Source of the DNA: Hermatobates lingyangjiaoensis
Lineage: Eukaryota > Arthropoda > Insecta > Hemiptera > Hermatobatidae
NCBI GenBank assembly: GCA_026182355.1
Contig: JAPFBL010000119.1
Location: forward strand, 888,501 to 952,500
Reading direction: 5' to 3'
DNA length: 64,000 bases
The notes beneath the pieces are model-generated. The model searched no databases. It worked only from the letters and a program-made list of their open reading frames with translations, and was not told where the DNA came from. The first letter of the stretch is position 1. Every line of letters begins with the position of its first letter. A program made the position numbers and the translations under genes. Positions 1,576 through 63,935 of this stretch are shown here, piece after piece.

Positions 1576-1618
1576 TATAATATATTCAGGTAACTCACCA
1601 CAATTAGAGAAGATAGTC

Positions 1619-1654
1619 GCTCTAAGGCCTTTCGTTTTCACGTCGTCAGAGAGC
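1619..1654 (-). ncRNA. hammerhead ribozyme motif, family H, left arm
   Basis: Exact inverted copy of the motif at 1716-1751, with stem I, core, stem II and stem III all unchanged. In an RNA transcribed through the whole palindrome the two copies would pair with each other rather than fold separately, so activity would depend on transcription start and direction. Confidence 0.65.
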
Positions 1655-1715
1655 AAGTGAATACAAGTTGTAAGCAGTTATGAATTCATAACCTGCTTAC
1701 AACTTGTATTCACTT

Positions 1716-1751
1716 GCTCTCTGACGACGTGAAAACGAAAGGCCTTAGAGC
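1716..1751 (+). ncRNA. hammerhead ribozyme motif, family H, right arm
   Basis: Compact type I hammerhead layout. Stem I is GCUCU (1716-1720) with AGAGC (1747-1751). The core CUGACGA is at 1721-1727. One unpaired C (1728) follows, then a GU/AC stem II (1729-1730, 1735-1736) closed by a GAAA loop. GAA is at 1737-1739. Stem III AGGCCU (1740-1745) is self-complementary, and the base 5' of the predicted cut is U1746. Every core residue known to be needed (C3, U4, G5, A6, G8, A9, G12, A13, A14) is present. Stem II is very short, and the unpaired C is not in the textbook fold. Confidence 0.7.
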
Positions 1752-1818
1752 GACTATCTTCTCTAATTTGTGGTGAGTTACCTGAATATTTATATCACGT
1801 GTTATTGTGACAATTTTC

Positions 1819-1825
1819 TATATAT

Positions 1826-2094: not shown

Positions 2095-2330
2095 TTAGGT
2101 AGAAAGATGTTTCAAACATCATTAAGCCGACGTTTCGTCCATATTTGTAGACATCTTCAGGGCTTCATCAATACAGAACTTAATTCAATTTTAATTTTTA
2201 TATTTATTTTCATTTTTTAATTTTTATTTAAATTTTAATTTAATATACGAAACGTCGGCTTAAAGGTGTTATTATTGAAGCTAGAACAAACCTCGATAAA
2301 AAAGAAAAATAATGTTAAATAAATGTGGTC
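2095..2330. mobile_element. family G hammerhead module with partial inverted copy
   Basis: A minus-strand unit with an intact hammerhead motif (2124-2165) faces a plus-strand fragment starting at about 2245 (ACGAAACGTCGGCTTAAAGG) that keeps only the 3' half of the ribozyme and the tail GAAGCTAGAACAAACCTC. The same family recurs as a palindrome at 33717-33872. The AT-rich spacer at about 2170-2244 has no motif. Confidence 0.7.
2124..2165 (-). ncRNA. hammerhead ribozyme motif, family G
   Basis: Read on the minus strand: stem I AAGCC (2161-2165) pairs with GGCUU (2124-2128). The core CUGAAGA is at 2154-2160, with A at the variable position N7. One unpaired U follows, then stem II GUC/GAC with an AU-rich loop, GAA, a self-complementary stem III ACGU, and C before the predicted cut. 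All core residues are present. Four-base self-complementary stem III segments are typical of hammerheads that work as dimers. Confidence 0.7.
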
Positions 2331-2365: not shown

Positions 2366-2373
2366 TATTATAT

Positions 2374-2427: not shown

Positions 2428-2434
2428 TATATAT
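2366..2434. repeat. (TA)n tract
   Basis: About 69 bp of TA with a few phase slips, adjoining the family E module that starts at GATCAAACCACAAT. Confidence 0.95.
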
Positions 2435-2680
2435 GATCAAACCACAATATTAAATTGGAAAAAAGACTTAAGAACTTTCAACTGTAACAAGGGTCAGAGT
2501 CAAATATCCAACTGAAACACTACATGCAGAACATCATAGTGAGGGATTGAGTGCAGTGCGAGGTAAGAGTGGTATGTTTAAAAGGGTGCAAAGTGCATGA
2601 ATGTCGTTTTATTGTGGTTTGATCATTGATTGTTATTTCACGTGTATATGTGTAATCTTTCATGTATATAAAGTGACTCA
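2434..2680. mobile_element. family E hammerhead module, inverted pair with inserted middle
   Basis: The left half (minus) reads GATCAAACCACAAT, then a degenerate ribozyme region (GAACTTTCAACTGTAACAAG, CAGAGTCAAA). The right half (plus) is the tail GTGGTTTGATCATTGATTG and TTATTTCACGTG. Between them about 90 bp of unrelated sequence replaces the second ribozyme. Confidence 0.6.
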
Positions 2681-3135: not shown

Positions 3136-3480
3136 TTGAAGTAGAAGCCTGGTGTTTTATGGACGAAATGGAAAGTAAAGGCAGTATCTGCAGCAATGTT
3201 GGGTGAAAGTGGAACCTCCCAGAATACAGGTCCAACTCTGTACATGGCAAACTCAGCCAACGATAAAACGCGCGGTAAAAACAAGTTACTACTATTGCTC
3301 TGAACATTTGAAGTAGAAGCCTTGTATGATTTAATGGACAAATTGGAAAGTAAAGGCAGTACTGCAGCAATGTTGGGTGAAAGTGGAACCTCCCAGAATA
3401 CAGGTCCAACTCTGTACATGGCAAACTCAGCCAACGATAAAACGCGCGGTAAAAACAAGTTCTCACTAGTGCTCCCTGAC
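3136..3480. repeat. 172-bp tandem duplication, exon-like
   Basis: Two head-to-tail copies begin at 3136 and 3308 (TTGAAGTAGAAGCC in each) and share the block from GGCAGTA to GGTAAAAACAAGTT almost without change. On the plus strand the second copy reads as a protein-like frame containing YDLMDKLESKGSTAAMLGES and TGPTLYMANSANDK. The first copy is broken by small indels. On the minus strand both copies are also partly open. I do not recognise a protein. The source could be a duplicated exon or a retrocopy. Confidence 0.6.
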
Positions 3481-8269: not shown

Positions 8270-8890
8270 AAATAACTCAGTTGCAGAATCAGATTTTCTT
8301 GACAAATAATGCAACAGTTGTTATAGATGATCTTAGTATTTGAAATGGAGATTGGAGAGTTCTTGAAAAACAATAAATCATTTTTTATAGATACTTACAG
8401 TTCAGAAAACCAAAATCGGGCTTTCTTCACAAACAATATAGTTTGTTGTTCTTACAAATACCCTCTGATAGGCATACTCGACTTTCTTGACAAACTATAC
8501 AACAGTTGTTATAGTAATCATAGCACATGATAGGCAAAGTCAGGCTTCCTGAGAAACAATATAGAAGTTGTTGTAGATACTTATTGCATCTGATAGGCAG
8601 ACTCAGGCTTCTTAACAAACAATACACCAGTTACTGTAGACACCCACAGCATCTGATAGGCAGACTCAGCTATCATGACAAACAATATAGAAGTTGCTGT
8701 AGATACTTATAGTATCTAATAGGCAGACTCAAGCTTCTTGGGAAACAATATGACAGTTGCTGTAGATACTCATAGCATCTGATAAGCTGACTAAGGCTTC
8801 CTGACAAACAGTATTCTACAGCAGTTGCTGTAGATACTTATATGTAATAGGCAGATTCGGATTTTTTGACAACACATGAACGAACATTCA
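8270..8890. repeat. 63-bp minisatellite, about nine to ten units
   Basis: The word GATAGGCA or a close variant recurs at 8467, 8529, 8592, 8655, 8718, 8781 and about 8845, a regular 62-63 bp spacing. Units share TTGACAAACAATAT, CAGTTGCTGTAGATACT and ATCTGATAGGCAGACTC and differ by several substitutions each. Upstream units to about 8275 are more diverged. Because 63 is a multiple of three, a 21-residue peptide repeat appears in the plus frame (8527-8712), with an open frame on the other strand too. That is expected from the period and is not evidence of a gene. Confidence 0.85.
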
Positions 8891-13924: not shown

Positions 13925-15045
13925 CTAATGAATTCATGGTTAAACATTCATTACAATTTAAGGAAGCCTTAACGAATGAAGTACTAAATGAAAATGTAAT
14001 CATGATTTCTCTAGATGTTCAATCTCTTTTGACTAACGTACCTATTGATCTAACTATTGATTAAATAAAATAAACAATGGGATAAAATTTAACCACAAAC
14101 TGTCATCAGAAAACAGAAATGTTTATCCATTCTAAATCTTATTTGTGAAGCCCGATACTTTATATTCGATGGAGTTATATATAAACAAAAGTTTGGATTA
14201 CCTATAGGCTCTCCAATATCACCAGTTCTTACTAACATAGTAGTGGTTGAATTACTAAAGTATTAAAGTGAGTTAAGCTCAATAGCAAACTTCATAAAAC
14301 TCTATGTTGATGATTTGTTTCTAATTACTGAAAAAAGAGAACTAGATAATGTTTTAAATGTATCATAATCAACTTAAATTCACATATGAGATAGAAAAAG
14401 ATGGAATCCTCCCATTCATCGATATAAAAGTTATAAGCGCCGAAAATGGTAATATTTTAACCGATTGGTACAAAAAACCTACCAGTGCTGGAAGAATACT
14501 GAATTATTATTCTTCCCATCCTAACCAAAAATTTAATTGCCTTAAGGAAATGGTAAAAAAGTCATAGAAGTAAGTTTATTATGCTACCTATATAAAAATA
14601 AGAAAAAGGTATAAGAGTTACTACAGAAAAATAATTATTTAGGAAATTCGATTGAACGTTTTTGGTCAAAATATTTAAGCCAACAACCAGAGACACAGAA
14701 TGGCAGAAATACATACTAACTTAGTAGTTCAACATAAGAAGTTTTTTTTAAATTTCCATATGTTGGAGGATTACGTAAACAATTAAAAAAGTATTCAAAA
14801 GACACTTACCTCAAGTTTATTTTATCTATAAGAAAAAATAAAATTAATGTCACTTAGTTAGCAGAGCATAGTATTAATAAAGGCTATAATTGTGATTTTA
14901 ATTAAATAAAAATAATAGCCAAAGAAATGGGTGAACAGAGAAGGAAAACACTGGAAATGTTGTATATTAGAAAGGACCAGTGATCCGTCAATTATAGGAG
15001 TGATATTTCAAATTTAAATAGCATTTATTCCAATGTGTTAAGTTA
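13925..15045 (+). pseudogene. Penelope-like element, decayed reverse transcriptase copy
   Basis: Three frames together show the PLE reverse transcriptase: ISLDVQSLLTNVP (about 14004-14044), KQKFGLPIGSPISPVLTNI (about 14186-14238) and the catalytic LYVDDLFLI (about 14299-14326). A 69-codon frame at 14358-14564 follows with FTYEIEKDGILPFIDI and DWYKKPTSAGRILNYYSSHP, the usual segment after the catalytic motif. Further on are PYVGGLRKQLKK (about 14757) and a C-terminal block with RRKTLEMLYIRKD and YRSDISNLNSIYSNVL (to about 15045). The GIY-YIG endonuclease expected between these last two is missing, apparently deleted. Many stops and frameshifts make it inactive. It lies antisense within the proposed intron. 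Confidence 0.85.
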
Positions 15046-15482: not shown

Positions 15483-15510
15483 ATATATATATATATATAT
15501 ATATATATAC

Positions 15511-15682
15511 TAAAATAAGCAGTGACACATAAACAGAAACACAACAAAGACTCACTTTTCAATATTTCGACCGCCATTACGGTCGAAATATTGAAAAGTG
15601 AGTCTTTGTTGTGTTTCTGTTTATGTGTCACTGCTTATTTTAATTGTTATTTGTCCTGCCGGACCGTTTTTCGTTTATCATG
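15511..15682. mobile_element. palindromic hammerhead module, family B
   Basis: A near-perfect palindrome at 15511-15642 (axis 15576/15577), with a plus-strand tail to 15682 ending in GGACCGTTTTTCGTTTATCA. (TA)n lies on both sides. The axis falls inside stem II of the ribozyme: the two arms join in the loop of GACCG/CGGTC, so each arm retains only stem II, GAA, AUAU, U and the 3' strand of stem I. Neither has the CUGANGA half, so this copy cannot be a ribozyme. A fuller family B unit is at 28418-28644. Confidence 0.8.
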
Positions 15683-15683
15683 G

Positions 15684-20201: not shown

Positions 20202-20229
<28 letters not shown>

Positions 20230-20234
<5 letters not shown>

Positions 20235-20361
20235 GTTCAAACCAGAATAAGAAGTGGCGAAAAAAGACTAAGATCTTTTTTCGCCATTTTTTATTATGGT
20301 TTGATCATTGATTATTATTTCACGTTCTTATGTGGAATCTTATATATATATATATATATAA
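20230..20361. mobile_element. family E module, collapsed palindrome
   Basis: The left part TTCAAACCAGAATAAGAAGTG, GACTAAGATCTTTTT switches directly to the right part TCGCCATTTTTTATTATGG, TTTGATCATTGATTATTATT. The ribozyme middle is deleted. (TA)n flanks it at 20202-20229 and 20340-20361. Confidence 0.65.
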
Positions 20362-28417: not shown

Positions 28418-28644
28418 AACAATTAAAATAAGCAGTGACACATAAACTGAAACACAACGAAGACTCACTTTTCAATATTTTGACCGTAATGGCGGTCGTC
28501 CTCAGGAGAAGTGAATGACGGAGGGACGACAGTCAATATTACGGTCGAAATATTGAAAAGTGAGTCTTTGTTGTGTTTCAGTTGATGTGTCACTGCTTAT
28601 TTTAATTGTTATCTGTCCTGCCGGACCGTTTTTCGTTTATCATG
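28418..28644. mobile_element. palindromic hammerhead module, family B
   Basis: The left arm (minus, from AACAATTAAAATAAGCAG) has a complete-length ribozyme. The right arm (plus) repeats the 3' part and ends GGACCGTTTTTCGTTTATCA beside (TA)n. The arms match each other closely outside the middle. The right arm lost the CUGANGA half. A short TA tract lies on the left at about 28406-28416. Confidence 0.8.
28464..28515 (-). ncRNA. hammerhead ribozyme motif, family B, one core change
   Basis: Minus strand: core CUGAGGA (G at the variable N7), unpaired C, five-pair stem II GACCG/CGGUC, then AAA where GAA is expected (G12 to A), AUAU, U. Stem I is the longest in the window: UUCACUUCUC can pair with GAAAAGUGAG at nine of ten positions. 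The matching arm at 28545-28555 and the copy at 15511 keep GAA, so the change is private to this arm. Confidence 0.6.
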
Positions 28645-28684
28645 GTATATATATATATATATATATATATATACTATATATATA
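28645..28684. repeat. (TA)n tract
   Basis: About 40 bp of TA with one interruption, at the 3' end of the family B palindrome. Confidence 0.95.
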
Positions 28685-33184: not shown

Positions 33185-33303
33185 AAATGAATGTCCTCTC
33201 TTCCTGTCTACTCTCCTGATGACGAACAACAGTTCGAAATATTGAATTCTGTAAGTGTTCTTTTTAGTCTCTTTTCTGTGTCGTGCTTTGTGTAATTTAA
33301 AGT
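33185..33303 (+). mobile_element. family C hammerhead module, plus strand
   Basis: Starts within TGTCCTCTCTTCCTG and ends GTGTAATTTAAAG at (TA)n 33304-33323. It is the inverted counterpart of the copy at 16889-17030, with no local partner arm. Confidence 0.75.
33208..33255 (+). ncRNA. hammerhead ribozyme motif, family C
   Basis: Core CUGAUGA (33216-33222), unpaired C (33223), stem II GAAC/GUUC (33224-33227, 33232-33235) with an AACA loop, GAA (33236-33238), self-complementary AUAU (33239-33242), U (33243). Stem I is two pairs, an internal loop and UAC/GUA further out. All core residues are intact. Confidence 0.65.
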
Positions 33304-38024: not shown

Positions 38025-38255
38025 AAACTAGAATTTAAAAAAGAACACATAGAAAGGAAACCACTGAACTCACTACTATATTTCGATGTCCTCGTCTTTA
38101 GGAAAAGAAGTGAATCGCTCCAAAGGCTGATAACGACAGTGAGTCGTTATCAGCCTTTGGAGCGATTCACTTCTTTTCCTAAAGACGAGTACATCGAAAT
38201 ATAGTAGTGAGTTCAGTGGTTTCCTTTCTATGTGTTCTTTTTTAAATTCTAGTTT
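38025..38255. mobile_element. palindromic family D module
   Basis: A 231-bp palindrome with axis at about 38140 (AGTGA between GATAACGAC and GTCGTTATC). The ribozyme core in both arms reads CUAAAGA instead of CUGAAGA, so G5 is lost. The second copy at 40693-40922 has the intact core, so this is a later change copied to both arms, presumably by conversion between them. Confidence 0.85.
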
Positions 38256-38308
38256 ATTCAGTTCGAAGAATCGTTTCTCTAATTATATATATATATATAT
38301 ATATATAT

Positions 38309-38430
38309 GTTTCATGCTAGTAGCTTGGTGTCCCTATCTCTCCTGATGACGGTTCAACCGAAAATTGTTAAGCGTTTGTGATTTACGTAAAACGTATGTT
38401 GTCCTTTTGGATCGTTTTCCTGTTTACAAT
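38309..38430 (+). mobile_element. family A hammerhead module
   Basis: CTTGGTGTCCCTATCTCTCC, core CUGAUGA at 38343-38349, unpaired C, GGU/ACC, GAA, AAUU, then G where a non-G base is required before the cut. It ends GGATCGTTTTCCTGTTTACA at (TA)n 38429-38446. The copy in the second S repeat (40983-41106) shares this G, so both should cleave poorly. Confidence 0.75.
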
Positions 38431-38446: not shown

Positions 38447-39427
38447 GTTTTATTAAAAGTAATTCCCAATTTAACTTTTACACTTTTTCTTATCCGTTTT
38501 TCAAGTGTTCTCATACTTGACTTCCACGGTTCTGGAACTAAAAACATAAGTTCACCAAAATTTTTATTACTATACACCGACATGTTTCGGTCATCGTTGA
38601 CCATTTTCAAGGTTAAAGAATATATAAAATTATTAATGATCGAAAAGTGAATAACAATTAAAATAAACTAAAATAAACATAACGAGTCCATAACACATAT
38701 TCACAACTAGGGAGGTTATCAAAGGTAAAGGTATGTTGAGGTTTCACCAGGCTCTTGGTTACCTTCCATCTGGGAAGGTAATCGATTAACTTCTATACCT
38801 CTCCCAGACTGGTTCGCCTTCTGACTGCCTTCATATAATTTTAGAATTCTTGAAAATCCTCCTCCTTGGCTGTTAATACTAGGTTGCTTTTCGAGGATCA
38901 AGATAGCTTCCAAAATTTGCAATCTGGTGTGGTCATGTTCTTGTTGTAATATTACAGTATTGTCTGTTAACATTTCCCTGGTTAATTGCACTCCATGTGT
39001 TAACCTAACGTGCTCTTTGGGTCCTCCGGATGCCAGATGCATGGTGAGCCTTCGTGAAAGCGTGGTTGTGGTGGAACCAACATATTTCGAGCGTAGGGAC
39101 TCGCAGTTCCCTAATTTGCAGTTAAACTCGTATACAACATTAGTTCTCTGAAGGGTTGCTTTCTTTTGTGGGTTGTTCGTAATTACCATTCTTGAAGTGG
39201 CAGAGTTGGCATAGTAAATTCGTAATTCTAATCTGTCATCTGGCTTGAGGCATGATGTATTATTCTTAATAATTCCTTTTAGTATACGTTCATCCGTTTT
39301 TATAAGCTTCCGAAAACTGGTTTTTATAATATACTAAATGTGTTGCGCCTTTGTTTTCGGGATTCTGTTGAATATCACTACCATGAAGTTTGTTCAGGCA
39401 ACCTTTCAAGATGGAATCGAATTGTCG
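38447..39427 (-). pseudogene. Penelope-like element 3' region with GIY-YIG endonuclease, left arm
   Basis: Inverted copy of the right arm at 39439-40458. The frame at 38719-39189 (minus) encodes VVYEFNCKLGNC and KYVGSTTTTLSRRLTMHLAS, the GIY-YIG signature (VY...YVG, then Arg and His), followed by ILEAILILEKQPSI. One extra T in a T run near 39300 breaks the upstream frame, and a 13-bp deletion lies beyond the stop. The outer 3' end stops at GTTTTATTAAAAG, lacking about 25 bp that the right arm retains, and abuts (TA)n. No reverse transcriptase sequence is present. Confidence 0.85.
38576..38613 (-). ncRNA. hammerhead-like motif inside the PLE, left arm
   Basis: Minus strand: ACC/GGU stem I, UUGAAAA in the place of CUGANGA (C3 and G8 changed), unpaired U, GGUC/GACC stem II, GAA, self-complementary ACAUGU, C. 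Layout and pairing match the short modules, but loss of G8 should abolish cleavage. The same changes are in all three copies here (also 40264-40301 and 43970-44007). Confidence 0.55.
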
Positions 39428-39438
39428 GATATAGTAAT
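39428..39438. other. axis of the first PLE palindrome
   Basis: The 11-bp spacer GATATAGTAAT separates the two arms (ATTGTCG to the left, CGACAAT to the right). The identical spacer is at 43133-43143. A single frame at 39340-40071 crosses the axis, so its first 30 or so residues are an artefact of reading the left arm backwards. Confidence 0.9.
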
Positions 39439-40456
39439 CGACAATTCGATTCCATCTTGAAAGGTTGCCTGAACAAACTTCATGGTAGTGATATTCAACA
39501 GAATCCCGAAAACAAAGGCGCAACACATTTAGTATATTATAAAAACCAGTTTTCGGAAGCTTATAAAACGGATGAACGTATACTAAAAGGAATTATTAAG
39601 AATAATACATCATGCCTCAAGCCAGATGACAGATTAGAATTACGAATTTACTATGCCAACTCTGCCACTTCAAGAATGGTAATTACGAACAACCCACAAA
39701 AGAAAGCAACCCTTCAGAGAACTAATGTTGTATACGAGTTTAACTGCAAATTAGGGAACTGCGAGTCCCTACGCTCGAAATATGTTGGTTCCACCACAAC
39801 CACGCTTTCACGAAGGCTCACCATGCATCTGGCATCCGGAGGACCCAAAGAGCACGTTAGGTTAACACATGGAGTGCAATTAACCAGGGAAATGTTAACA
39901 GACAATACTGTAATATTACAACAAGAACATGACCACACCAGATTGCAAATTTTGGAAGCTATCTTGATCCTCGAAAAGCAACCTAGTATTAACAGCCAAG
40001 GAGGAGGATTTTCAAGAATTCTAAAATTATATGAAGGCAGTCAGAAGGCGAACCATCTGGGAGAGGTATAGAAGTTAATCGATTACCTTCCCAGATACAA
40101 ATGACGGATGGAAGGTAACCAAGAGCCTGGTGAAACCTCAACATACCTTTACCTTTGATAACCTCCCTAGTTGTGAATATGTGTTATGGACTCGTTATGT
40201 TTATTTTAGTTTATTTTAATTGTTATTCACTTTTCGATCATTAATAATTTTATATATTCTTTAACCTTGAAAATGGTCAACGATGACCGAAACATGTCGG
40301 TGTATAGTAATAAAAATTTTGGTGAACTTATGTTTTTAGTTCCAGAACCATGGAAGTCAAGTATGAGAACACTTGAAAAACGGATAAGAAAAAGTGTAAA
40401 AGTTAAATTGGGCATTACTTTTAATAAAACGGTATAAATGAAGGCCTGCTCCCCAA

Positions 40457-40458: not shown

Positions 40459-40459
<1 letters not shown>

Positions 40460-40521
<62 letters not shown>
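40460..40521. repeat. (TA)n tract
   Basis: About 62 bp of TA with a few phase slips, between the PLE 3' end and direct repeat S copy 2. Confidence 0.95.
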
Positions 40522-40944: not shown

Positions 40945-40985
<41 letters not shown>

Positions 40986-41117
40986 GTTTCATGCTAGTAG
41001 CTTGGTGTCCCTATTTCTCCTGATGACGGTTCAACCGAAAATTGTTAAGCGTTTGTGATTTACGTAAAACGTTTGTTGTCCTTTTGGATCGTTTTCCTGT
41101 TTACAATATATATATAT
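40520..41117 (+). repeat. direct repeat S, copy 2 (partner 37853-38440)
   Basis: Same module order as copy 1: a plus-strand family D unit (40525-40676), a family D palindrome (40693-40922) and a family A unit (40983-41106), with (TA)n between. The flanking of a PLE inverted pair by S copies resembles the terminal repeats or partial tandem copies that PLEs often show, but S consists of several different module families. Confidence 0.85.
40693..40922. mobile_element. palindromic family D module with intact cores
   Basis: A 230-bp palindrome, axis near 40807, between (TA)n at 40678-40692 and 40950-40980. The right-arm ribozyme at 40836-40878 has core CUGAAGA (40846-40852), unpaired C, GA/UC stem II with a GGACA loop, GAA (40863-40865), AUAU (40866-40869) and A. 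The left arm (40737-40779) is its mirror. Outer stem I pairing is CACU/AGUG; the related unit at 40550 has CAGU/ACUG instead, a compensating change. Confidence 0.8.
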
Positions 41118-41125
41118 ACATAAAT

Positions 41126-41336
41126 CATATGTTTAAACCACAATAGGAATGGGAAAAAATACTAAGATCTTCTAACCGTAACAAGCGGTCTTTGTCAGAG
41201 TCAAATCTCAACGTTGAGTTTGACTCTGACGAAGACCTCTTATTACGGCTGAAAGATCGTAGCCTTTTTTCTGACTTCTTATTGTTGTTTGAACATTGAT
41301 TGTTATTTCATGTGCATATTGTAAATATATGTACAT

Positions 41337-41337
<1 letters not shown>
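41126..41337. mobile_element. palindromic family E hammerhead module
   Basis: Palindrome from GTTTAAACCACAAT to ATTGTTGTTTGAAC, with the plus-strand tail TTATTTCATGTGCATATTG. Plus ribozyme at 41222-41264: GACU/AGCC stem I worn, core CUGACGA intact, unpaired A, GACC stem II worn, GAA, AGAUCG (symmetry lost). The minus one has a changed G8 (CUGACAA). The duplicate is at 44229-44440. Confidence 0.75.
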
Positions 41338-41368
<31 letters not shown>

Positions 41369-41370
<2 letters not shown>

Positions 41371-41562
41371 ATGATCAAACCACAATAAGAAATGGGAAAA
41401 CAAGACTAAGATCTTTCAACCGTAACAAGCGGTATTCGTCAGAGTCAAAAACCCAACTGACGAAGACCGCTTGTTACGGTTGAAAGATCTTAGTCTTGTT
41501 TTCCCATTTCTTATTGTGGTTTGATCATTGATTGTTGTTTCACGTGTTTATGTGAAATCCTT
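41369..41562. mobile_element. palindromic family E hammerhead module, best preserved pair
   Basis: A 162-bp near-perfect palindrome at 41369-41530 (CAATGATCAAAC to GTTTGATCATTG), then the tail TTTCACGTG...GTGAAAT, itself a short hairpin, ending at TA repeats. It is absent from the other copy of repeat D, where only a short TA run is found, so it inserted into (TA)n after, or was lost since, the duplication. This gives an empty-site comparison within the window. Confidence 0.85.
41404..41446 (-). ncRNA. hammerhead ribozyme motif, family E
   Basis: Minus strand: stem I GACU/AGUC, core CUGACGA, unpaired A, stem II of the GACCG/CGGUU type with one substitution, a CUUGUUA loop, GAA, six-base self-complementary AGAUCU, U before the cut. 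The plus-strand partner (41457-41495) has everything except the 5' strand of stem I, because the palindrome axis lies there. Confidence 0.7.
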
Positions 41563-41944
41563 TTATATATATATATGCTTATATAATATTGATTTTTTTA
41601 TTTACTTTAAATTCCGTTCTTAATCAATAATACATTTTGTATAATTGTTCATAATCAATTTGCAATATTTTGTATAATATATTTATTAATTGTATTTTTG
41701 TTATTATTATACTAAACATCTTTTGTTACTACTGTATTTAACGTTAAAGAATGGAATGTGTGTGGCGATGCTTGAAAATAATTAAAAAAAATATATGTAA
41801 TGATATGGCATTTACAGTTATTGTGAATATATTATAGTTTTATATGTAATTAGCATTTACGCACAATTATAGCTTATCTAATTAGTTAAAAAAATATGAA
41901 CCTCTATGTTTTTATTTTTAAGAATTTCAAGGAAAATAGAAGTA

Positions 41945-42370: not shown

Positions 42371-42601
42371 ACAACCAAAATACAGGTTTTGAGATCCTAC
42401 ATATAATTTCAAATCAAAAAATGAACCCATACCACTAGTTTCATCATTTTCTCCTTTTTTTCAGTTATTTATAAGTTCCTTCATACCTTATTTTTCTTTC
42501 TATTATTTTTTCACTTATTTTTATTCATCATTAATGGTGCTGCCCCATTAATAATGATAAAATGGGGAACGAAGTAATCGTACGGAGCAGCAGGGGCATC
42601 T

Positions 42602-42686
42602 TGGCAGGATGATATCTACTCTGTTTGAAATCCTTGAAAATAGTCGACGGAGATCGAAACATTTCAGTGTATATTTAGTAAAAAAT
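42602..42686 (+). pseudogene. second-family PLE C-terminal fragment, truncated
   Basis: Same as the start of 45435-45530: FEILENSRRRSKHFSVYLVK in one frame, with a hammerhead-like run CCTTGAAAATAGTC ... GATCGAAACATTTC. The fragment ends abruptly in AAAAATGTT, where the first-family PLE left arm begins; the shared GTT at the junction suggests microhomology joining. Confidence 0.65.
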
Positions 42687-43132
42687 GTTAATTGCACTCC
42701 ATGTGTTAACCTAACGTGCTCTTTGGGTCCTCCGGATGCCAGATGCATGGTGAGCCTTCGTGAAAGCGTGGTTGTGGTGGAACCAACATATTTCGAGCGT
42801 AGGGACTCGCAGTTCCCTAATTTGCAGTTAAACTCGTATACAACATTAGTTCTCTGAAGGGTTGCTTTCTTTTGTGGGTTGTTCGTAATTACCATTCTTG
42901 AAGTGGCAGAGTTGGCATAGTAAATTCGTAATTCTAATCTGTCATCTGGCTTGAGGCATGATGTATTATTCTTAATAATTCCTTTTAGTATACGTTCATC
43001 CGTTTTATAAGCTTCCGAAAACTGGTTTTTATAATATACTAAATGTGTTGCGCCTTTGTTTTCGGGATTCTGTTGAATATCACTACCATGAAGTTTGTTC
43101 AGGCAACCTTTCAAGATGGAATCGAATTGTCG
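42687..43132 (-). pseudogene. PLE GIY-YIG region, left arm of second palindrome, truncated
   Basis: Nearly identical to 38995-39427 and to the mirror of 43144-43590. The outer part beyond GTTAATTGCACTCC is missing, so the endonuclease frame (42548-43231 minus, which also crosses the axis) loses its C-terminal third and runs into unrelated sequence. It lacks the extra T found in the first palindrome's left arm. Confidence 0.8.
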
Positions 43133-43143
43133 GATATAGTAAT
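43133..43143. other. axis of the second PLE palindrome
   Basis: The same 11-bp spacer GATATAGTAAT as at 39428-39438, with the same flanking ATTGTCG/CGACAAT. Two independent foldback events would be unlikely to stop at the same base, so the palindrome was probably copied as a unit. Confidence 0.9.
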
Positions 43144-44160
43144 CGACAATTCGATTCCATCTTGAAAGGTTGCCTGAACAAACTTCATGGTAGTGATATT
43201 CAACAGAATCCCGAAAACAAAGGCGCAACACATTTAGTATATTATAAAAACCAGTTTTCGGAAGCTTATAAAACGGATGAACGTATACTAAAAGGAATTA
43301 TTAAGAATAATACATCATGCCTCAAGCCAGATGACAGATTAGAATTACGAATTTACTATGCCAACTCTGCCACTTCAAGAATGGTAATTACGAACAACCC
43401 ACAAAAGAAAGCAACCCTTCAGAGAACTAATGTTGTATACGAGTTTAACTGCAAATTAGGGAACTGCGAGTCCCTACGCTCGAAATATGTTGGTTCCACC
43501 ACAACCACGCTTTCACGAAGGCTCACCATGCATCTGGCATCCGGAGGACCCAAAGAGCACGTTAGGTTAACACATGGAGTGCAATTAACCAGGGAAATGT
43601 TAACAGACAATACTGTAATATTACAACAAGAACATGACCACACCAGATTGCAAATTTTGGAAGCTATCTTGATCCTCGAAAAGCAACCTAGTATTAACAG
43701 CCAAGGAGGAGGATTTTCAAGAATTCTAAAATTATATGAAGGCAGTCAGAAGGCGAACCAGTCTGGGAGAGGTATAGAAGTTAATCGATTACCTTCCCAG
43801 ATACAAATGACGGATGGAAGGTAACCAAGAGCCTGGTGAAACCTCAACATACCTTTACCTTTGATAACCTCCCTAGTTGTGAATATGTGTTATGGACTCG
43901 TTATGTTTATTTTAGTTTATTTTAATTGTTATTCACTTTTCGATCATTAATAATTTTATATATTCTTTAACCTTGAAAATGGTCAACGATGACCGAAACA
44001 TGTCGGTGTATAGTAATAAAAATTTTGGTGAACTTATGTTTTTAGTTCCAGAACCATGGAAGTCAAGTATGAGAACACTTGAAAAACGGATAAGAAAAAG
44101 TGTAAAAGTTAAATTGGGCATTACTTTTAATAAAACGTGTATAAATGAAGGCCTGCTCCC

Positions 44161-44217: not shown

Positions 44218-44225
44218 CATAAAAC

Positions 44226-45530
44226 CTATGTTTAAACCACAATAGGAATGGGAAAAAACACTAAGATCTTCTAACCGTAACAAGCGGTCTTTGTCAGAGT
44301 CAAATCTCAACGTTGAGTTTGACTCTGACGAAGACCTCTTATTACGTCTGAAAGATCGTAGCCTTTTTTCTGACTTCTTATTGTTGTTTGAACATTGATT
44401 GTTATTTCATGTGCATATTGTAAATATATGTACATCTTTATATATATATTTATATAATATTGATTTTTTTTATTTACTTTAAATTCCGTTCTTAATCAAT
44501 AATACATTTTGAACAATTGTTCATAATCAATTTGCAATATTTTATATAATATATTTATTAATTGTATTTTTGTTATTATTTTACTAAACATCTTTTGTTA
44601 CTACTGTATTTAACGCTAAAGAATGGAATGTGTGTGGCGATGCTTGAAAATAATTAAAAAAAATATATGTAATGATATGGCTTTTACAGTTATTCTGAAT
44701 ATATTATAGTTTTATATGTAATTAGCATTTACGCACAATTATAGCTTATCTAATTAGATAAAAAAATATGAACCTCTATGTTTTTATTTTTAATAGTTTC
44801 AAGGAAAATAGAAGTAAATATAATATTGTGGTGTTGTTTACATTGCATGCTAGTATGCCAGAAAAAGTGGCCTTGGAGATATCTGCAGCAGTATGCAAAT
44901 AGAAAGTAGTTGTAAAAGGAAGGTAAAGGAGGATTAGCTAAGTAGGGGCAGGAACCAAGTATAAAATGTGGCCTTGAAGAGAGAGTCCCGTGTTGGATGA
45001 GCAACAAAACATATCAACACTTGTTCTCGCAAGTAGAGCAACTGAACCACCTGTACTCAAGTACAAATAGGTCAGTGGAGCTGAGAGGGCTGCTTCGACT
45101 TGTAGTGTTTGACAATATTCGGTTTCACCTTGTACATGTCGCTAAAAATACATTACGTTAGTGCAAGCTTCAGTTACCATAGATATCCAATATAAACACA
45201 CGAAAGTATTGTGTTCAGGTCAAAACATTAAAACAGAGTTCACAACCAAAATACAGGTTTTGAGATCCTACATATAATTTCAAATCAAAAAATGAACCCA
45301 TACCACTAGTTTCATCATTTTCTCCTTTTTTTCAGTTATTTACAAGTTCCTTCACATCTTATTTTTCTTTCTATTATTTTTTCACTTATTTTATTCATCA
45401 TTAATGGTGCTGCCCCATTAATAATGGGGCATCTTGGCAGGATGATATCTACTCTGTTTGAAATCCTTGAAAATAGTCGACGGAGATCGAAACATTTCAG
45501 TGTATATTTAGTAAAAATGTTGGTGAACTA
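44226..45530 (+). repeat. direct repeat D, copy 2 (partner 41126-42686)
   Basis: Carries the family E palindrome at 44229-44440, the AT-rich stretch, the GC-richer stretch (about 44820-45240) and the start of the second-family PLE remnant. Where copy 1 has a second family E palindrome, this copy has only TATATATATATTTATATAAT. Confidence 0.85.

Positions 45531-45821: not shown

Positions 45822-45861
<40 letters not shown>
45822..45861. repeat. (TA)n tract
   Basis: 40 bp of TA between the second-family PLE end and the family A palindrome. Confidence 0.95.
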
Positions 45862-45863
<2 letters not shown>

Positions 45864-45911
45864 TTCACGGTGAATCTCAAACACAGAACTAAGGGACAAA
45901 CACACTTACTG

Positions 45912-45944
45912 TCTCTAATTTTCGGTTTAACCGTCATCAGGAGA
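45912..45944 (-). ncRNA. hammerhead ribozyme motif, family A, intact
   Basis: Minus strand: UCUC/GAGA stem I, core CUGAUGA, unpaired C, stem II GGU/ACC with a UAA loop, GAA, self-complementary AAUU, A before the cut. It differs from the right arm only in the stem II loop (UAA against UCA). Confidence 0.65.
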
Positions 45945-46446
45945 GTTGAGATAGGGACACCAAGCGCACTTTTGAAGCGGCGGTTGGAGACCCAATTGGG
46001 TCTAAGAATAAGCTAAAATTAACTAAGAATAAGCTAAGAAATAGAAAGTGAAAATGAAGGAAATTAGGAAATATAAATAATAAAAAAACTTAAAAGATAA
46101 TAATGAAGAAAATAAGAAAAAAATAGCTGAAACAAATTAAAATCCAGGAATATAAATAATAAATACTTAAATAATAATAATGATGAGGATGGTTGGAATA
46201 AAGTTGTATAAATAGTAATTTTAGATAAAAATAAAAAGATAATAATAAAAAAATAATAGTCAAAATAAAAAAATAAAAACTTAAAAGATTATTATTTATA
46301 TTTCTAATTTTCTTCATTTTCACTTTCTATTTCTTAGCTTATTCCTAGTTAATTTTTCTTACCTCTCTTGAACCGGGCACGCATGTGACAACACTGTTGG
46401 TCTCCAACCGTCGCTTCACAAGTGCGCTTGATGTCCCTATCTCAAC

Positions 46447-46479
46447 TCTCCTGATGACGGTTCAACCGAAAATTAGAGA
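46447..46479 (+). ncRNA. hammerhead ribozyme motif, family A, intact
   Basis: Stem I UCUC (46447-46450) with GAGA (46476-46479), core CUGAUGA (46451-46457), unpaired C (46458), stem II GGU/ACC (46459-46461, 46465-46467), GAA (46468-46470), AAUU (46471-46474), A (46475). This is the reference copy for family A. Confidence 0.7.
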
Positions 46480-46563
46480 CAGTAAGTGTGTCTGTTCCTT
46501 AGTTCTGTGTTTGTGATTCACCGTGAAATGTTTGTTGTTCTTTTGGGTCGTTTTCCTGTTTAC

Positions 46564-46571
46564 AATATATA

Positions 46572-49436: not shown

Positions 49437-49474
<38 letters not shown>

Positions 49475-49476
<2 letters not shown>

Positions 49477-49690
49477 ATTTCTGATAAACACGTGAAACAA
49501 CAATCAATGATCAAACCACAACATGAAATGGGAAAACAAGACCAAGATCTTCCAACCATAACAAGTGGTTCTAGTCAGAGTCAAAAACCCAACTTTGTTG
49601 GGTTGGGTTGGGTTTTTGACTGTGACGAGGACCACTTGTTACGTTTGGAAGATCGTCTTGTTTACCCATTTCATATTGTGGTTTGATCAT

Positions 49691-49692
<2 letters not shown>
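49475..49692. mobile_element. palindromic family E module
   Basis: Between (TA)n tracts at 49437-49473 and 49693-49725. The left arm includes the tail hairpin GATTTCTGATAAACACGTG; arms match from CAATGATCAAACC to GGTTTGATCATTG. Minus ribozyme at 49540-49582 keeps AGAUCU and GACC/GGUC-type pairing but its core is CUGACUA. The plus one (about 49618-49658) has UGUGACG and a worn stem III. Confidence 0.75.
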
Positions 49693-53699: not shown

Positions 53700-54047
53700 T
53701 AAAAAAAAATACTTGTTAACCTGGTTGATTGAAGTTTCTAGAATTTTTGGTAACCCTCAATATGGTTAATGATGAAGAAATCTTCATCTGTTTAATTATT
53801 CCACTAATCAAAACTTCATCCAATTTATAAAGTCCTAGGCTATTGTTCATAAATTTCTCATAAAAGTTCTTTACGAGTGCACTTTCCAAAATATTTCTTC
53901 TTCTATTCAAAGACACAAATATTAATTCATTTACTTCAAAATTAGATGAAGTTTTGATTAGTGGAATTATTAAACAGATTAATACTTCTTCATCATTAAA
54001 CAAATTCAGGGTTACCAAAAATTCTAGAAAATTCAATCAACCAGCTT

Positions 54048-54734: not shown

Positions 54735-54794
<60 letters not shown>
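54735..54794. repeat. (TA)n tract
   Basis: About 60 bp of TA with one phase slip, abutting the family E palindrome. Confidence 0.95.
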
Positions 54795-55000
54795 GATCAA
54801 ACCACAATATGAAATGGGATAAAAAGACTAAGATCTTTCAACCGTAACAAGCGGTCTTCTTCAGAGTCAAAAACCCAACTGAAAAACGAGGGGTTTTTGA
54901 CTTTGAGGAAAACCGCTTGCTACGGTTGAAAGATCTTCTTTTTTTCCCATTTCACACTGTGGTTTGATCATTGATTGTTATTTCATCGGTTTATGTGAAA
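54795..55000. mobile_element. palindromic family E module
   Basis: GATCAAACCACAATATGAAA to TTTGATCATTGATTG, then the hairpin tail TTATTTCATCGGTTTATGTG and TA repeats at 55003-55018. The left-arm ribozyme is intact (separate entry). The right arm (about 54898-54940) has CUUUGAGGA and lost stem I pairing. Confidence 0.8.
54826..54868 (-). ncRNA. hammerhead ribozyme motif, family E, intact
   Basis: Minus strand: stem I GACU/AGUC, core CUGAAGA, unpaired A, five-pair stem II GACCG/CGGUU (one G-U pair) with a CUUGUUA loop, GAA, six-base self-complementary AGAUCU, U before the cut. It differs from other family E copies at N7 (A instead of C), the one core position known to tolerate any base. This is the best complete example of the family. 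Confidence 0.75.
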
Positions 55001-55039
55001 TCTTATATATATATATATAGATTAAAAATGAGAAAAAAT

Positions 55040-58787: not shown

Positions 58788-58905
58788 GGAATCGATTAAC
58801 ACTGTAACACTTCTACTCACTTTGAATAACTGATCAATACAGTTATACGAGTAGCTTAATCATAAAATACCTCGTAAAAAATCCGCGAAATAAACACAAC
58901 GTATA
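58788..58905 (-). repeat. inverted partner of 54132-54250
   Basis: GGAATCGATTAACACTGTAA through CCGCGAAATAAACACAACGT is the reverse complement of the segment at 54132-54250, about 4.6 kb away, with few differences. Confidence 0.85.
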
Positions 58906-61900
58906 GAGACCATGGCACTTACAGAATTTATGATATATCAATAAACAAAATAACTAACTAGAGCATGCGCTCTAGTAATTCGGTGGGAATTATTTTATGT
59001 ATGATTTGGGGTTAAATTGCTGAGGTTTTGGGTTTGTAACCGACTTTAGTTTGACCCTAAAGGATAATTTCTACGCGGATTGAACTCAATACAAATTTAT
59101 ATACAAAATACATATTCACAATACAATCGTCAACTACAAACCCAGAACCTCAGCGATTTAACCCAAATCATACAGACAAGTTTTTTCAAATTATAAAAAG
59201 AAGTATAAAAAAAATGAATAAGCTTTTTTTTATCAAAAGTGCAATCAATACATATCTATGGTGAGCTTGCTGTTCTGTCATTGTACAAATAATATAAACA
59301 TAATATTTGAAGATTTCAACTTTTTTTTTGGTTTTATTAGATATTCTGTTAATGATTAAACACACAATACAAACCACGAAGCTCATACACACATACACAC
59401 ACACCGCCTAACGATGTCTGAAACATATTTCATTACATTTTAGAACTTCCAAACGTAATAATCATTAACGAAATTTTTTGAATATGTCATATAGAGAATA
59501 AATGAATTTAATAGTAAAGGTAAAGATGAAATGTATTAAAGGATTTCATACTACTAGTTAGCCAGAAAGCATTCGCAGAAGAAGTTAAGTATTGAAAAGG
59601 CTACGTTTCTGACAGGTTATCCTTAACGATTAGCTGTTCTGAAGATAAAATCATAACTTACCGAACTTTATATAAACAACCCAGCAAGATTGGAAAGTCT
59701 AGGTAATTATAAAAAAAAATTGATTATTCAGAAATATAAAAAAAAACGAGTTATAAATAAAATCTGTGAATATCTGTATTCGATATATTCTCTTTCTCAT
59801 TATTTTGGTTTAAATCTAAATATAATTTACTGGTTAAAGCAATTACGCAAAAAAAAAGATTGTTCGATTATGTAAACATTAAAAGCTCTCACTGAACAAA
59901 TATATATATAAAAAAAAAAGAAAACAAAATGGTTATTTTCTCAAGAAATTTAAATACGTTGATTCTAGACATGCAGGCGATGTTTGAAAAGGTGTAGTGA
60001 TTATGCGAAACAAGTTGAAACCGGGAAATAGAATTACTTATTCACGTTCAAGGCAAAGACTGACAAATCACTAAGTAGAAGGTAATCTGTTACCAATTCA
60101 AATGTCAGAGAGTAATTATATTTAACAGAGAAAACATGACAAAACAGAATGCAGTTTGTTTTAAATAAATATTAATTCTTCAATGTCAGGACGTATGATA
60201 TTTAAATCTCATGTAAAAGGAGCAAGACGATTTATGTCTAAGGCAGCATAGTAAATTGCCAGATAGTGATGACAGCAAGTTTAAGGATGAGGCATAAATC
60301 TAAGAAGTAAAACTATAAAATAGAAGAGTGAAAACGAATAATACTATTAAACTATAAAATAAAACCAGTGAAACGTATAAGCATAATGTTAAGTAACGGG
60401 AACCTTGGCAAAGAACAGATTCCATTCTCTTCCAAGTGTCTCTGAAATGTGTCATCACGTCTTCGAAGGTCGAGAATGTTGGGAGAAAGGAGGACAGCAA
60501 ATAAAAGGAAAAAGCTGACTTGAGATACGTCAACACTGATATATATGTATACATTAGACTCAAAATTCTATCAGAAGGCGGTCAAATTTTCTAGATTTAA
60601 ATCAGACTTTCAAACTCAACGTTTCGATTATATTTAGAACATTTATTATTTTGAATTTCAATGTCAACGTAAATATAACAAGCACTTACAACAATTATTC
60701 TTTATAAAGCAATATTATAATATTACTTTTAAACGAAGGACTTTAACTGAAACTTTACTTTTTTAGTATGACTTTGTTACCAGTTCATATCGTTTGGATT
60801 TATTACTAAACATAAATAAATTCTCCGATGTTTCCCTCCTTTTAATACTACATACTGTTTGATATGTGTTTCCGCTGCTATACTCGTTTGGGCGTAATCT
60901 TAAACCTGCAATCATGAAAGTAATGGTTTGGACGACGCCGAATAGCCGACAGGCCAAGGACGGGCGTTGGCTGAAGCAGGTGACAAGAATGGAATACCAA
61001 CACTTTATATTACTCATCGAATGCTTTACTAGGAAACTCTTTTATTTACATAATTCTTGAACACAGCAGTAATACGAAACTCTTTTAAGAAGGCTAGGAT
61101 GCCATCGTGGACGACCAAAAGGGAGTCCGAGTGTTTTAGAAGGCTTGAAAGGTTCTTTCTCTTGTGTTCCATTCCGTATGTGTTAACGATTTCTTTATAT
61201 TATCAATGAAGTATTTAAAGTACTTCAGTTTTAGTTTAGCAATAAACTAGATTTACAAAAAGAATACTCATAAAAGAATACTCAACAACCTCGGTTAACC
61301 AAGTATCTGTATATGATATCAAGTTATACTGATATGTAACAAATAAGTTTTAGATTTTTTTATTTGAATATCTGTACCATCCTGATTTTTGTAGCTTATT
61401 CCCCGTGATTAAGTGAATTAAGGTTAAATAGTGTTCAGATGAGGCCTTCATTTCTACCAGGTGACTCTTGTCATTGATTCTGATTAAGCACGTTAACGTA
61501 AATGGTCTTAAGTGGTCGTTATACATTTTATTTGGTAATTTACCATTCATTGTTGGTTGAATAGAACTAGAGTTCTGAGTAACTACTTCACAAATACATA
61601 TACAAATTTTCTTAATATTTTTGAATGTTGAGTAGTGTTCGATATCAACCAATCCATACTTTAACAAAACAGGGATAAATTAAATAAATAAATTTAAAAT
61701 CAATAAATTAAGTTATTTTTGCTAATAACATGGAAGAGGTTTCAAGAATTGAAGTGAGTTTTACTTGATAATATCCTACAAAGCTTATCGGGAGGAGTTA
61801 CCAAGTAAAATACGTATATCCTCTTCAGAGTTTCCCTCTGACAGTTTGATAAATAAAATAAAATGCCAGGAGTCTGAAGATTATTTTCAAATATTTAACA

Positions 61901-63181
61901 TGTTTATTGGCCATTTATTTGGGTGTTATATAATATAATAAATTGGTTTACATGAATTTCAAGTAATAAATTTGATTATAAGTTTGTTTTAGTTTTATTG
62001 ATCAAATAGTTGAATCAGTTTGCAGTAGAATACTAAAAGGAGCAATACGCTTTCCTTACACACGCGATTTATATTAAGATCAGGAAGTACTAGCCTGGAG
62101 GTAGTATTTGAACAGGTCCTTGAAGAAGTCGAGCGACCTCGAATGGTTATAACAACACGAGAAAATGTAAATCAATGAAGCAAAAAAACAAACCGAAATA
62201 AAAACACCTAATCAAAAATGTTTCGTGCGTTGATTTTCGTACCGATCCTTCAAATACATATAATTCATTTCTAACGAAAACAAAACATCTCATACTGCCT
62301 AGAGATATTGTATACACTTCCATCACATTTAAAGATTACAGTAAAAAAAATTTTGTTTTTCACAGTAAACAATATAATAGCCTACAAAAATTCAATTTTC
62401 ACAAATGTTACCATAAATTCATACTTATATTGTCAATGTTTGAAGCAAGATAAACGGATAGATACTCACAGTTAATAAACTTGACTTTGATTATCAATAG
62501 TCATAAATCACAAATAAATACTTCAGCAATGAAAAATTTACAAACAATGTTGTTAAAATATAATTTCCTTTATAGTCAAGATACTTCATTTAACGACAAG
62601 ATACAAAGTTTTTTTAATTAACATTAATTACGATCTTTTTTTTCATTGTCAAAAAATAAATGAAATAACAGATAATAATAGAACATTGTATTTTTATAAA
62701 CTTTTACTCAAAAAAGTATAACAAGTATCAATATCTAATTGAACAATAAAACCATCGCAGTTCATGATCAATACTGCTATGTACTTGCATTATATATTGT
62801 CAGGCACTACGTATTGCACATTTAATGTACATAAATAGTAAATATTTAACTCTGGATACCCAAACAATAAAATTAGAAATATAAAGTGAGCAATATTTCG
62901 ATATAAAAGCTAGGTTTTTTAAATGATATATATTTATAAATATCATTTATTTATTCATTATCATTTTTTGTTAATTGTTCTATTTAAACGTTTTATTAAT
63001 TTTTTTTCGTTTTATTTTTTATCATTTTCCCTGCGTATGTTGGCAGTACTGGTACTGCTACCACGGTGAAGGGAAACGAGGTAACACTCGAAAGTGCTGA
63101 GAACTTTTTTCTTTTTTTAACTTTCAGTGGTGATTTCCTTGATTACAGCCACACATGTTTTTTATAACACCTCTGCATATA
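58906..63181. other. AT-rich DNA, nothing recognised
   Basis: A short inverted repeat: the TTGCTGAGGTTTTGGGTTTG word at about 59017 and its reverse complement (CAAACCCAGAACCTCAGCGA) at about 59137. Short frames at 60763-61060 and 61350-61667 are not recognised as proteins. No RNA gene. Confidence 0.4.
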
Positions 63182-63694
63182 TACAGGGTGTCCCAAAAAG
63201 ATGTATACATACATTAAATAATTGTAAATGAAGTATTTATATTATTTGTTTATTTATCAAGATGTAAAAGAATTTAGAAACGTTATTATATCGATTTGTC
63301 ACTGCCTGTTATCAAATTATTGTCCGTCCTGGTCCAGATACCTCCTGTAACGTGAAGCGACGGAGTAGCACACATCAGTCAACAAGTTCCTTCATTTTTG
63401 CTTACGTTCACGTTTAATGGTTGTTTTCGATTTTAGGGATTGTTGTAGGTTTCATTGCGTAGAATTTGTCATTTAGTTATCTTCAAAAAAAAAGTTCAGA
63501 GGTAGAAGGTCTGGTAAAATAGGAGTGTATTCAACAAAACATCTCCATGCAACCAACCTGTTGGAAAGAATCCAACATCGCGACGGTAGTGCGGGGGTTT
63601 TTCGTCTTCCTCAGAACGTTATTCTTGGCATGATAGACTGATGCAGCAAGTTCAAATATAAAAGGTATATGCATATTTATTGGGACATGCTGTA
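63182..63694 (-). mobile_element. mariner/Tc1-type DNA transposon remnant
   Basis: Imperfect terminal inverted repeats: TACAGGGTGTCCCAAAAAG at the left, TACAGCATGTCCCAATAAA (inverted) at the right, each starting with the TA expected of this superfamily. On the minus strand about 63590-63480 a broken frame has PPHYRRDVGFFPTGW and, after changes, a segment lining up with the PRSPDLTPLDFF motif around the last catalytic acid of these transposases. About 513 bp is far short of a full 1.3-kb element, so it is an internal deletion derivative. Confidence 0.7.
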
Positions 63695-63831
63695 TTTTCA
63701 TGTGACAGTAAATACGTGAAATAGAGTCACATTGAACTACACTGGACTTTTATGAATTTCTTGCTGTAGTCTAGAGTGCATATATCACATATATGTAGTC
63801 TAGAGTATCACATTTTCATATGATTGTATAT

Positions 63832-63935
63832 ATGTTGTTGCTGTTTTCCTGGGGAGCAGAAATCATCTTCTCCTGATGATGGCGTAGTCGAAATACTGAA
63901 GTAAAATTCATTCTTCTTTTAAGATTGTCGGACTG
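63832..63935 (+). mobile_element. family D-like hammerhead module
   Basis: TTCTCCTGATGATGGCG, AGTCGAAATACTGAAG: core CUGAUGA (about 63861-63867), unpaired U, short GG/UC stem II, GAA, AUAC (one base off symmetry), U. It stands without an inverted partner, followed by TCGGACTGTCTGTCC. The window ends soon after. Confidence 0.5.

Follow-up and report, generated by a model that had tools for sequence, protein, structure and literature searches.

Hammerhead-bearing, TA-flanked modules in the insect Hermatobates lingyangjiaoensis as probable insertions of the Penelope-like machinery

A 64-kb stretch of contig JAPFBL010000119.1 (assembly GCA_026182355.1, positions 888,501 to 952,500 of the forward strand) from the hemipteran insect Hermatobates lingyangjiaoensis, here termed the window, is AT-rich (GC 0.275-0.336 per 4 kb) and holds many short modules with hammerhead-ribozyme-like motifs as well as two pairs of 5'-truncated Penelope-like elements (PLEs). 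The motif and its pairing recur in several module families, modules adjoin (TA)n tracts, neighbours of the same family lie head to head, and their pairs combine one short with one long end, a rule which a PLE pair of the window follows as well. Very probably, the modules are insertions made by the PLE machinery, either as retained ends of 5'-truncated PLEs or as short non-coding mini-PLEs.

Hammerhead motifs and TA-flanked modules

Motifs of the short modules are located as follows (window coordinates and strand).

46447..46479, +: family A hammerhead, intact, TCTC-CTGATGA-C-GGT/ACC-GAA-AATT-A-GAGA; descriptor match, stems
45912..45944, -: family A hammerhead, intact, head-to-head partner of 46447; descriptor match, stems
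1714..1753, +: family H hammerhead, intact, 7-bp stem I, stem III AGGCCT; descriptor match, stems
1617..1656, -: family H hammerhead, intact, inverted partner of 1714..1753; descriptor match, stems
54826..54868, -: family E hammerhead, intact, stem III AGATCT; descriptor match, stems
2124..2165, -: family G hammerhead, intact, stem III ACGT; descriptor match, stems
28470..28509, -: family B motif, damaged, AAA replacing GAA (G12 lost) in the core-bearing arm (28505-)
33212..33247, +: family C motif with only 2 of 4 stem I pairs (33216+)
38343..38363, +: A' motif beside a PLE pair, with a second copy at 41020-41040 (+)

The pattern CTGANGAN{4,30}GAAA, i.e., CTGANGA with GAAA 4-30 nt further on, occurs 35 times in the window against 4.03 expected, a number reached in none of 100 shuffles. 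A strict descriptor comprises a 4-bp stem I, CTGANGA, one base, a 2-bp stem II and GAA in its 5' half, followed in its 3' half by a palindrome of 4 or 6 beginning with A, a non-G base and the second stem I strand. It matches six sites (46451+, 45940-, 1721+, 1649-, 54864- and 2160-) in families A, H, E and G, and none in each of 200 dinucleotide shuffles. All six contain exactly one extra base ahead of stem II, as the original prediction had it, and offsets of 0, 2 or 3 bases gave no descriptor match in the window. Scrambled core/tail combinations (n=1200) yielded a mean of 0.003 matches, the only two combinations above zero being permutations that still match the same six-site set. Shuffles and scrambled cores together rule out a chance origin of the motif.

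For closer comparison, 18 copies, an author-chosen subset of 31 candidate modules, were put in register by hand; MAFFT misregistered the short cores. The first stem II pair is G-C or G-U in 18 of 18 tabulated copies, as is known for the hammerhead pair 10.1-11.1; the untabulated copy 41442- has T-T at this position. Further along stem II the letters vary while pairing is kept (GGT/ACC, GACCG/CGGTT, GTCTA/TGGAC, GAAC/GTTC, GGA/TCC and GT/AC), and the stem III segment is palindromic in 15 of the 18 rows, the exceptions being 17141-, 20132- and 33009-. Six such palindromes were found, namely AATT, AGATCT, AGGCCT, ACGT, ATAT and, in the PLE, ACATGT. Since these segments are loop-less, stem III cannot be closed as a hairpin, and a second copy is needed for pairing. 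The palindrome of families A, E, G and H runs from A to T and is followed by A, C or T, in agreement with the A15.1-U16.1 closing pair and the H17 position. The stems and palindromes that had been listed for these four families are borne out by the 18-copy table, and position N7 was indeed seen as A, C, G and T. Six intact copies from four families thus combine the CUGANGA and GAA core with a type I arrangement of stems I and II. Core, stems I and II that vary in letters yet keep their pairing, self-complementary segment, H17 and the first pair of stem II all support the hammerhead reading, and hence the modules are predicted, from their letters, to carry type I minimal hammerhead motifs.

Certain features deviate from the usual form. 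Stem II never follows A9 directly, a usual though not strictly defining property of hammerheads, as one extra base always intervenes; some viroid-type hammerheads tolerate one extra base at this position. A check with the Rfam hammerhead models, which had been suggested together with the prediction, went the other way: the search of the window returned 30 matches at E<=1, none of them to a hammerhead family, which concerns annotation rather than definition. The claim of six families sharing one layout holds for A, E, G and H, each with an intact copy, but B has lost G12 and C retains only two to three of four stem I pairs, the copy at 16975- having three of four with a gap. The A' motif, in which H17 is G and stem I pairs at 1 of 4 positions, is predicted to be inactive. 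Likewise, the families are only partly as unrelated as they had looked, given that E and H share 3'-end sequence, as do A, A2 and B, a likeness that for the A and B tails was judged partly by eye.

The TA flanks had been described correctly. The window contains 49 (TA) tracts of at least 12 nt, and such a tract lies within 180 nt downstream of 23 of the 31 modules, compared to 3.6 expected and a maximum of 11 in 5000 draws, while 3 of 32 other CTGANGA sites taken as control have one. The 31 candidates were chosen by the authors and comprise 29 of the 35 density rows plus 37895+ and 1044-; the six dropped rows (five sites) were moved to the control set. Insertion into an AT-rich target, as is typical of PLEs, is thereby seen as (TA)n in these 23 modules. 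In most families the distance from the predicted cut to (TA)n is 35-61 nt at short ends and 72-92 nt at long ends, with H17 placed one base off in a few rows of this table.

A 5'-splice-site-like GTRAG stands 8-12 nt past the GAAA core in 9 of 11 modules (A, A2, A4, A5, A6, C, J). PLEs are known to carry introns, and the segment may be an intron signal or part of an outer stem. An outer extension of stem I, in which GTRAG pairs with upstream sequence, was not significant in 10 of the 11 modules (p 0.09-0.74); A2 is the exception with p=0.002, which is attributed to an inverted stub upstream of it. Repeats of another kind in the window are a tandem array of 63-bp units at 8464-8842 and a 174-bp tandem duplication at 3136-3474.

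Head-to-head pairs with one short and one long end

Among neighbours of the same family, 18 pairs lie head to head with no TA between them, none forms a direct tandem, and three lie tail to tail, all of these separated by TA. Three of the 18 are duplicates (J at 40.7 kb, E at 44.2 kb and the PLE at 42.7 kb). The underlying table was curated by hand: it retains 50 of 61 matched stretches and includes four additional PLE halves, while the 11 dropped were mostly fragments or weak matches, together with one self-match and the single K3 and K4. Moreover, A3 and A4, which lie on one strand 190 nt apart, were treated as separate families and would, if merged, give one same-strand neighbour pair. With 18 head-to-head against no direct arrangements, the inverted terminal copies typical of PLEs are present. 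The units are as follows.

1572..1818, head-to-head: family H unit, short/long, long end read by eye
2433..2665, head-to-head: family E unit, decayed centre, short/long
15509..15683, head-to-head: family B unit, junction in the stem II hairpin, short/long
20228..20340, head-to-head: family E unit, most of the hammerhead gone, short/long
28418..28645, head-to-head: family B unit, short/long
38026..38283, head-to-head: family J unit, short/long, near-copy at 40694-40950
41118..41339, head-to-head: family E unit, short/long, near-copy at about 44218-44440
41368..41563, head-to-head: family E unit, short/long
45860..46564, head-to-head: family A unit, short/long
49474..49692, head-to-head: family E unit, long end left, short end right
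54795..55003, head-to-head: family E unit, short/long

The non-coding head-to-head units measure about 110-260 bp, apart from the A unit of 705 bp. Their two ends were scored in 14 pairs, for which five of the 18 were omitted (two G pairs, the E duplicate at 44 kb, the PLE duplicate at 42.7 kb, and E at 46.6 kb, whose right end lacks TA) and one pair with a stub arm (A2) was added. In all 14 scored pairs one arm extends 0-10 nt and the other 26-41 nt beyond the last motif common to both arms, a reference point that by construction places one value near zero; two arms were read by eye. Because J is counted twice as a duplicate, 13 of the 14 are independent, including two B pairs that have similar long arms and different centres. 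With random ends and equal odds, a short/long combination in all 13 would arise by chance about once in 8000. A one-sided tail of about 30-40 bp, a further PLE trait, is accordingly found in 14 of 14 scored pairs, one of which is a GIY-YIG PLE pair of the window. The extensions of the long ends fold as small hairpins in B, A2 and several E copies.

The centres of the two J pairs (38130-38150 and 40795-40815) differ in that a 5-nt filler, AGTGA, is replaced by its reverse complement, as if the palindrome centre had flipped after duplication. An Rfam match to a coronavirus 5'UTR at 54766-54982 (48.7 bits against a gathering score of 124.9) coincides with a head-to-head E pair and is most readily explained as a palindrome artefact. 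The highest-scoring Rfam match in the window is to a microRNA family, likewise below the gathering score, and lies at 36065-36182 within a 440-bp palindrome with 88% identical arms (35905-36344), which is likely another foldback element and not a microRNA.

Penelope-like elements, the proposed mechanism and its rivals

The PLE copies of the window and the motif in their 3' region are located as follows.

38447..40456, head-to-head: PLE pair, 5'-truncated, GIY-YIG open reading frames (ORFs) at 38719-39333 (-) and 39283-40071 (+), short end left, long end right
42608..44150, head-to-head: second PLE pair, largely a 99.7% duplicate of 38981-40513
40262..40303, +: hammerhead-like motif of the PLE 3' region, core UUGAAAA (C3U with G8A), stem III ACATGT

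The endonuclease ORFs of the second pair lie around 42548-43824. Pfam GIY-YIG matches have an E-value of 4e-4; their scores, 20.9 and 21.1 bits, fall short of the curated cut-off, 22.6. Homologues number 77, two of which list RVT_1 (PF00078) and one of which, from the amphipod Trinorchestia longiramus, ranks 44th of 77 with 53% identity. When these 77 proteins were used in tblastn, four endonuclease copies (two head-to-head pairs) and a decayed reverse-transcriptase piece at 14141-14564 were recovered. Of the two domains that define a PLE ORF, a telomerase-like reverse transcriptase and a GIY-YIG endonuclease, the 5'-truncated copies at 38.4-44.2 kb hence retain the endonuclease part only. The short modules gave no match to PLE proteins in the same tblastn and are filed as PLE-mobilised only and not as autonomous PLEs. 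Local segmental duplications have multiplied arrays of PLEs and modules (38981-40513/42687-44221, 99.7%; 41316-42556/44168-45426, 92.9%). In addition, a 106-aa ORF at 53716-54036 (-) resembles by eye the end of another PLE endonuclease, with no match in Pfam or among the 77 PLE proteins.

The motif at 40262..40303 keeps the layout of the module motifs, with stem II GGTC/GACC, C17 and three of five stem I pairs, and its 16-mer recurs in an inverted copy at 38577-38592(-) and a duplicate at 43991-44006(+). A C3G/G8C double change partly restores cleavage of a PLE hammerhead (PMC11167929), and by analogy the U3-A8 combination could be a natural swap of that base pair. As the UUGAAAA copies are duplicates or partners of each other, they represent one or two events, and the core may have arisen simply by decay.

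It is the insertion pattern, i.e., head-to-head layout, short/long ends and TA junctions, that ties the modules to PLEs. In the mechanism that we favour, each module RNA would carry a minimal type I hammerhead whose stem III, a short loop-less palindrome of the PLE-type minimal form, would form only between two hammerheads. The PLE endonuclease would open a (TA)n tract, and synthesis of complementary DNA (cDNA) would be primed by both DNA strands. The first start of reverse transcription (RT) would lie about 35-60 nt and the second about 70-90 nt past the hammerhead cut, the stretch between them folding as a small hairpin in some copies. Joining of the two cDNAs at their 5' ends would then yield a head-to-head pair with one short end and one long end bearing the tail. 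Published PLE biochemistry is the model for the two-strand priming, the internal start sites and the cleavage, dimeric or protein-assisted, that are proposed here. The state of the template can be judged from family E. There, 15 of 19 arms retain the core and run across the predicted cut, and no arm among the 19 starts at the base just past it (boundaries set by the author from the alignment). The template would therefore have been uncut RNA and not a cut monomer opened at that site.

Several observations weigh against assigning the modules to the PLE machinery. Many copies in the 18-row table are damaged, and 8 of the 31 candidates lack a TA tract in the 180 nt downstream, some of these candidates being probably chance matches. 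Distances to the TA tract exceed those of the other families in G (115 nt) and in the PLE motif (158 nt), and A' has a long-type tail yet a cut-to-TA distance of only 61 nt, read as an internal deletion. The tails of A, J, E41a, E49 and the PLE form weak hairpins or none, as judged from fold estimates without a shuffle control. Nearest-neighbour energies favour a double hammerhead over two separate ones only in H, with no gain in A, E and G, and lower-energy folds exist in all four families. Furthermore, the short modules lack attached PLE coding sequence, such that no responsible PLE is assigned to each family. Finally, the RT start site of the Anolis PLE is the same for both strands in vitro (PMC11167929), which leaves the strict one-short-one-long rule unexplained by that work.

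Two variants keep the PLE origin and change one part of it. According to the first, to which we give somewhat less than an even chance, the short modules are only heavily 5'-truncated full-length PLEs and no non-autonomous lineage exists. PLE reverse transcription starts near the hammerhead, so that truncation leaves such a stub; the E arms start at varied points, and the PLE pair itself is 5'-truncated. On the other hand, J arms of a single insertion and of the pair share their 5' start, GTCGTTATCAG, and the starts of the two H arms are only a few bases apart, which is the behaviour expected of discrete short units. The second variant, which is rather doubtful, derives the head-to-head pairs from self-priming (snap-back) of a single cDNA instead of two-strand priming. 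The B unit at 15509-15683, which folds exactly at the stem II hairpin and has 97% identical arms, agrees with such an origin, and self-priming was proposed for rotifer Penelope (PMC3846280). On the contrary, snap-back would repeat the tail, which is one-sided in each of the 14 scored pairs, and cutting and extension of both strands have been seen in vitro with the Anolis PLE protein (PMC11167929).

A further reading, improbable in our estimate, assigns the hammerhead a first role as RNA dimer linker: stem III would join two template RNAs held by a dimeric PLE reverse transcriptase, and cleavage would be a side or late step. Each RNA would use its own strand of the TA tract for priming, with one RNA starting at the proximal and the other at the distal site, which would explain head-to-head pairs with one short and one long end. 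This role is compatible with the layout and with published PLE findings, namely the predicted dimerisation of a PLE protein and a hammerhead cleavage that is assisted by this protein and dispensable for insertion in vitro (PMC11167929); the energy estimate, which backs the double hammerhead only for H, counts against it.

Outside the PLE framework, animal retrozymes, whose self-cleaving oligomeric transcripts are circularised and copied into direct tandem repeats, are a very unlikely source. Their size range and type I hammerhead fit, and their authors propose PLEs as mobilising partner (PMC7229834). Retrozymes are, however, direct tandem repeats (PMC7229834), against which the complete lack of direct tandems beside 18 head-to-head neighbours speaks, as do the E arms, 15 of 19 of which span the predicted cut with none starting just after it. 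Least credible of all are TA-target miniature inverted-repeat transposable elements (MITEs) of the Tc1/mariner type, DNA transposons that would move as one inverted unit with the hammerhead as passenger: inverted arms, short length, TA at both outer ends and an E tree that groups E1R with E20R (support 0.91) and E20L with E41aL/E44L (0.65) are in their favour, but no two independent E loci, nor the two B loci, share a pair centre, which argues against movement as a unit, one arm is often truncated, the ends are unequal in 14 of 14 scored pairs, and the E arm tree is mixed, with four of seven independent pairs grouping with their own partner (E49 0.88, E41b 0.79, E46 0.79, E54 0.17; not E1, E20 and E41a) and one of them above 0.8 support. 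A fixed centre, equal ends and a single mobile unit, as expected of MITEs, are hence not found.

Known counterparts and significance

The original prediction regarded a superfamily of this kind as less well described, which the literature does not support: animal genomes contain thousands of dispersed minimal type I hammerheads without helix III, some of them in PLE pseudo-LTRs (long terminal repeats) (PMC7761336). Such hammerheads may self-cleave as dimers (PMC7761336, PMC6155905), for which palindromic stem III sequences and tandem motifs are needed (PMC6466107). The minimal hammerheads of PLEs (Cervera and de la Pena 2014; Lunse, Weinberg and Breaker 2017, as cited in reviews) share with the modules the type I order and the CUGANGA/GAA core, the lack of a closed helix III, a palindromic stem III fit for dimers, the link to PLEs and a dispersed high copy number. 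A possible point of difference is the one extra base between A9 and stem II in every intact module copy. For such hammerheads a count near 150,000 has been reported.

The closest biochemical parallel is the PLE of Anolis carolinensis (PAc), whose ORF has the cut at 26 bp and the main RT start at 111-118 bp (PMC11167929), a cut-to-start distance of 85-92 nt as derived from these figures. Its tail of 30-40 bp is the stretch between two RT start sites, its enzyme cuts AT-rich DNA and extends both strands, and its hammerhead cleavage is protein-dependent and dispensable for insertion in vitro (PMC11167929). Alike are a hammerhead about 85-92 nt upstream of an internal RT start, a tail of 30-40 bp, AT-rich sites and, in the proposed mechanism, the cutting and extension of both strands; unlike the modules, whose target is (TA)n and most copies of which are non-coding and very short, the Anolis PLE prefers ATT (PMC11167929). 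In bdelloid rotifers, Penelope has inverted pseudo-LTRs, one of which bears a 31-bp tail, along with palindromic junctions and AT-rich targets (PMC3846280), and resembles the modules in its head-to-head inverted terminal copies, palindromic junctions, one-sided tail and simple AT-rich targets. The rotifer copies differ in that they flank coding elements, several with 8-10-bp target duplications (PMC3846280); since the module flanks are (TA)n, any target duplication would be hidden here. Metazoan retrozymes, too, are small non-coding units with type I hammerheads, yet they form direct tandem repeats and circular RNAs (PMC7229834), while no direct tandems occur among the modules.

Searches beyond the window with exact patterns gave no match in a viral contig collection and none in a genome contig collection, and a PLE protein alignment (14 of the 77 proteins, author-chosen) gave no confirmed locus in viral and genome contigs. 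A looser hammerhead pattern matched 86 viral stretches and one further pattern gave 1 match; two of these 87 loose matches had at least 3 bp in both stems, represent the same sequence on two contigs, and were taken as chance rather than as related hammerheads. By title and abstract, the papers retrieved on hammerheads in MITEs contained nothing relevant, and those on non-autonomous PLE units with hammerheads, in the parts covered, reported no such mini-PLE families, which is weak evidence of absence. The claim to novelty is accordingly modest: modules of this kind are already known, and the families are new within the searches made, with an unusually clear end-pairing rule.

The role of hammerheads in PLEs has been called a mystery (PMC7761336). 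Many of the scattered minimal hammerheads described here can be read as ends of PLE-made insertions with a strict short/long pairing, and this rule offers a simple genomic test of PLE integration models and a means of asking whether the hammerhead cuts or, instead, pairs template RNAs.

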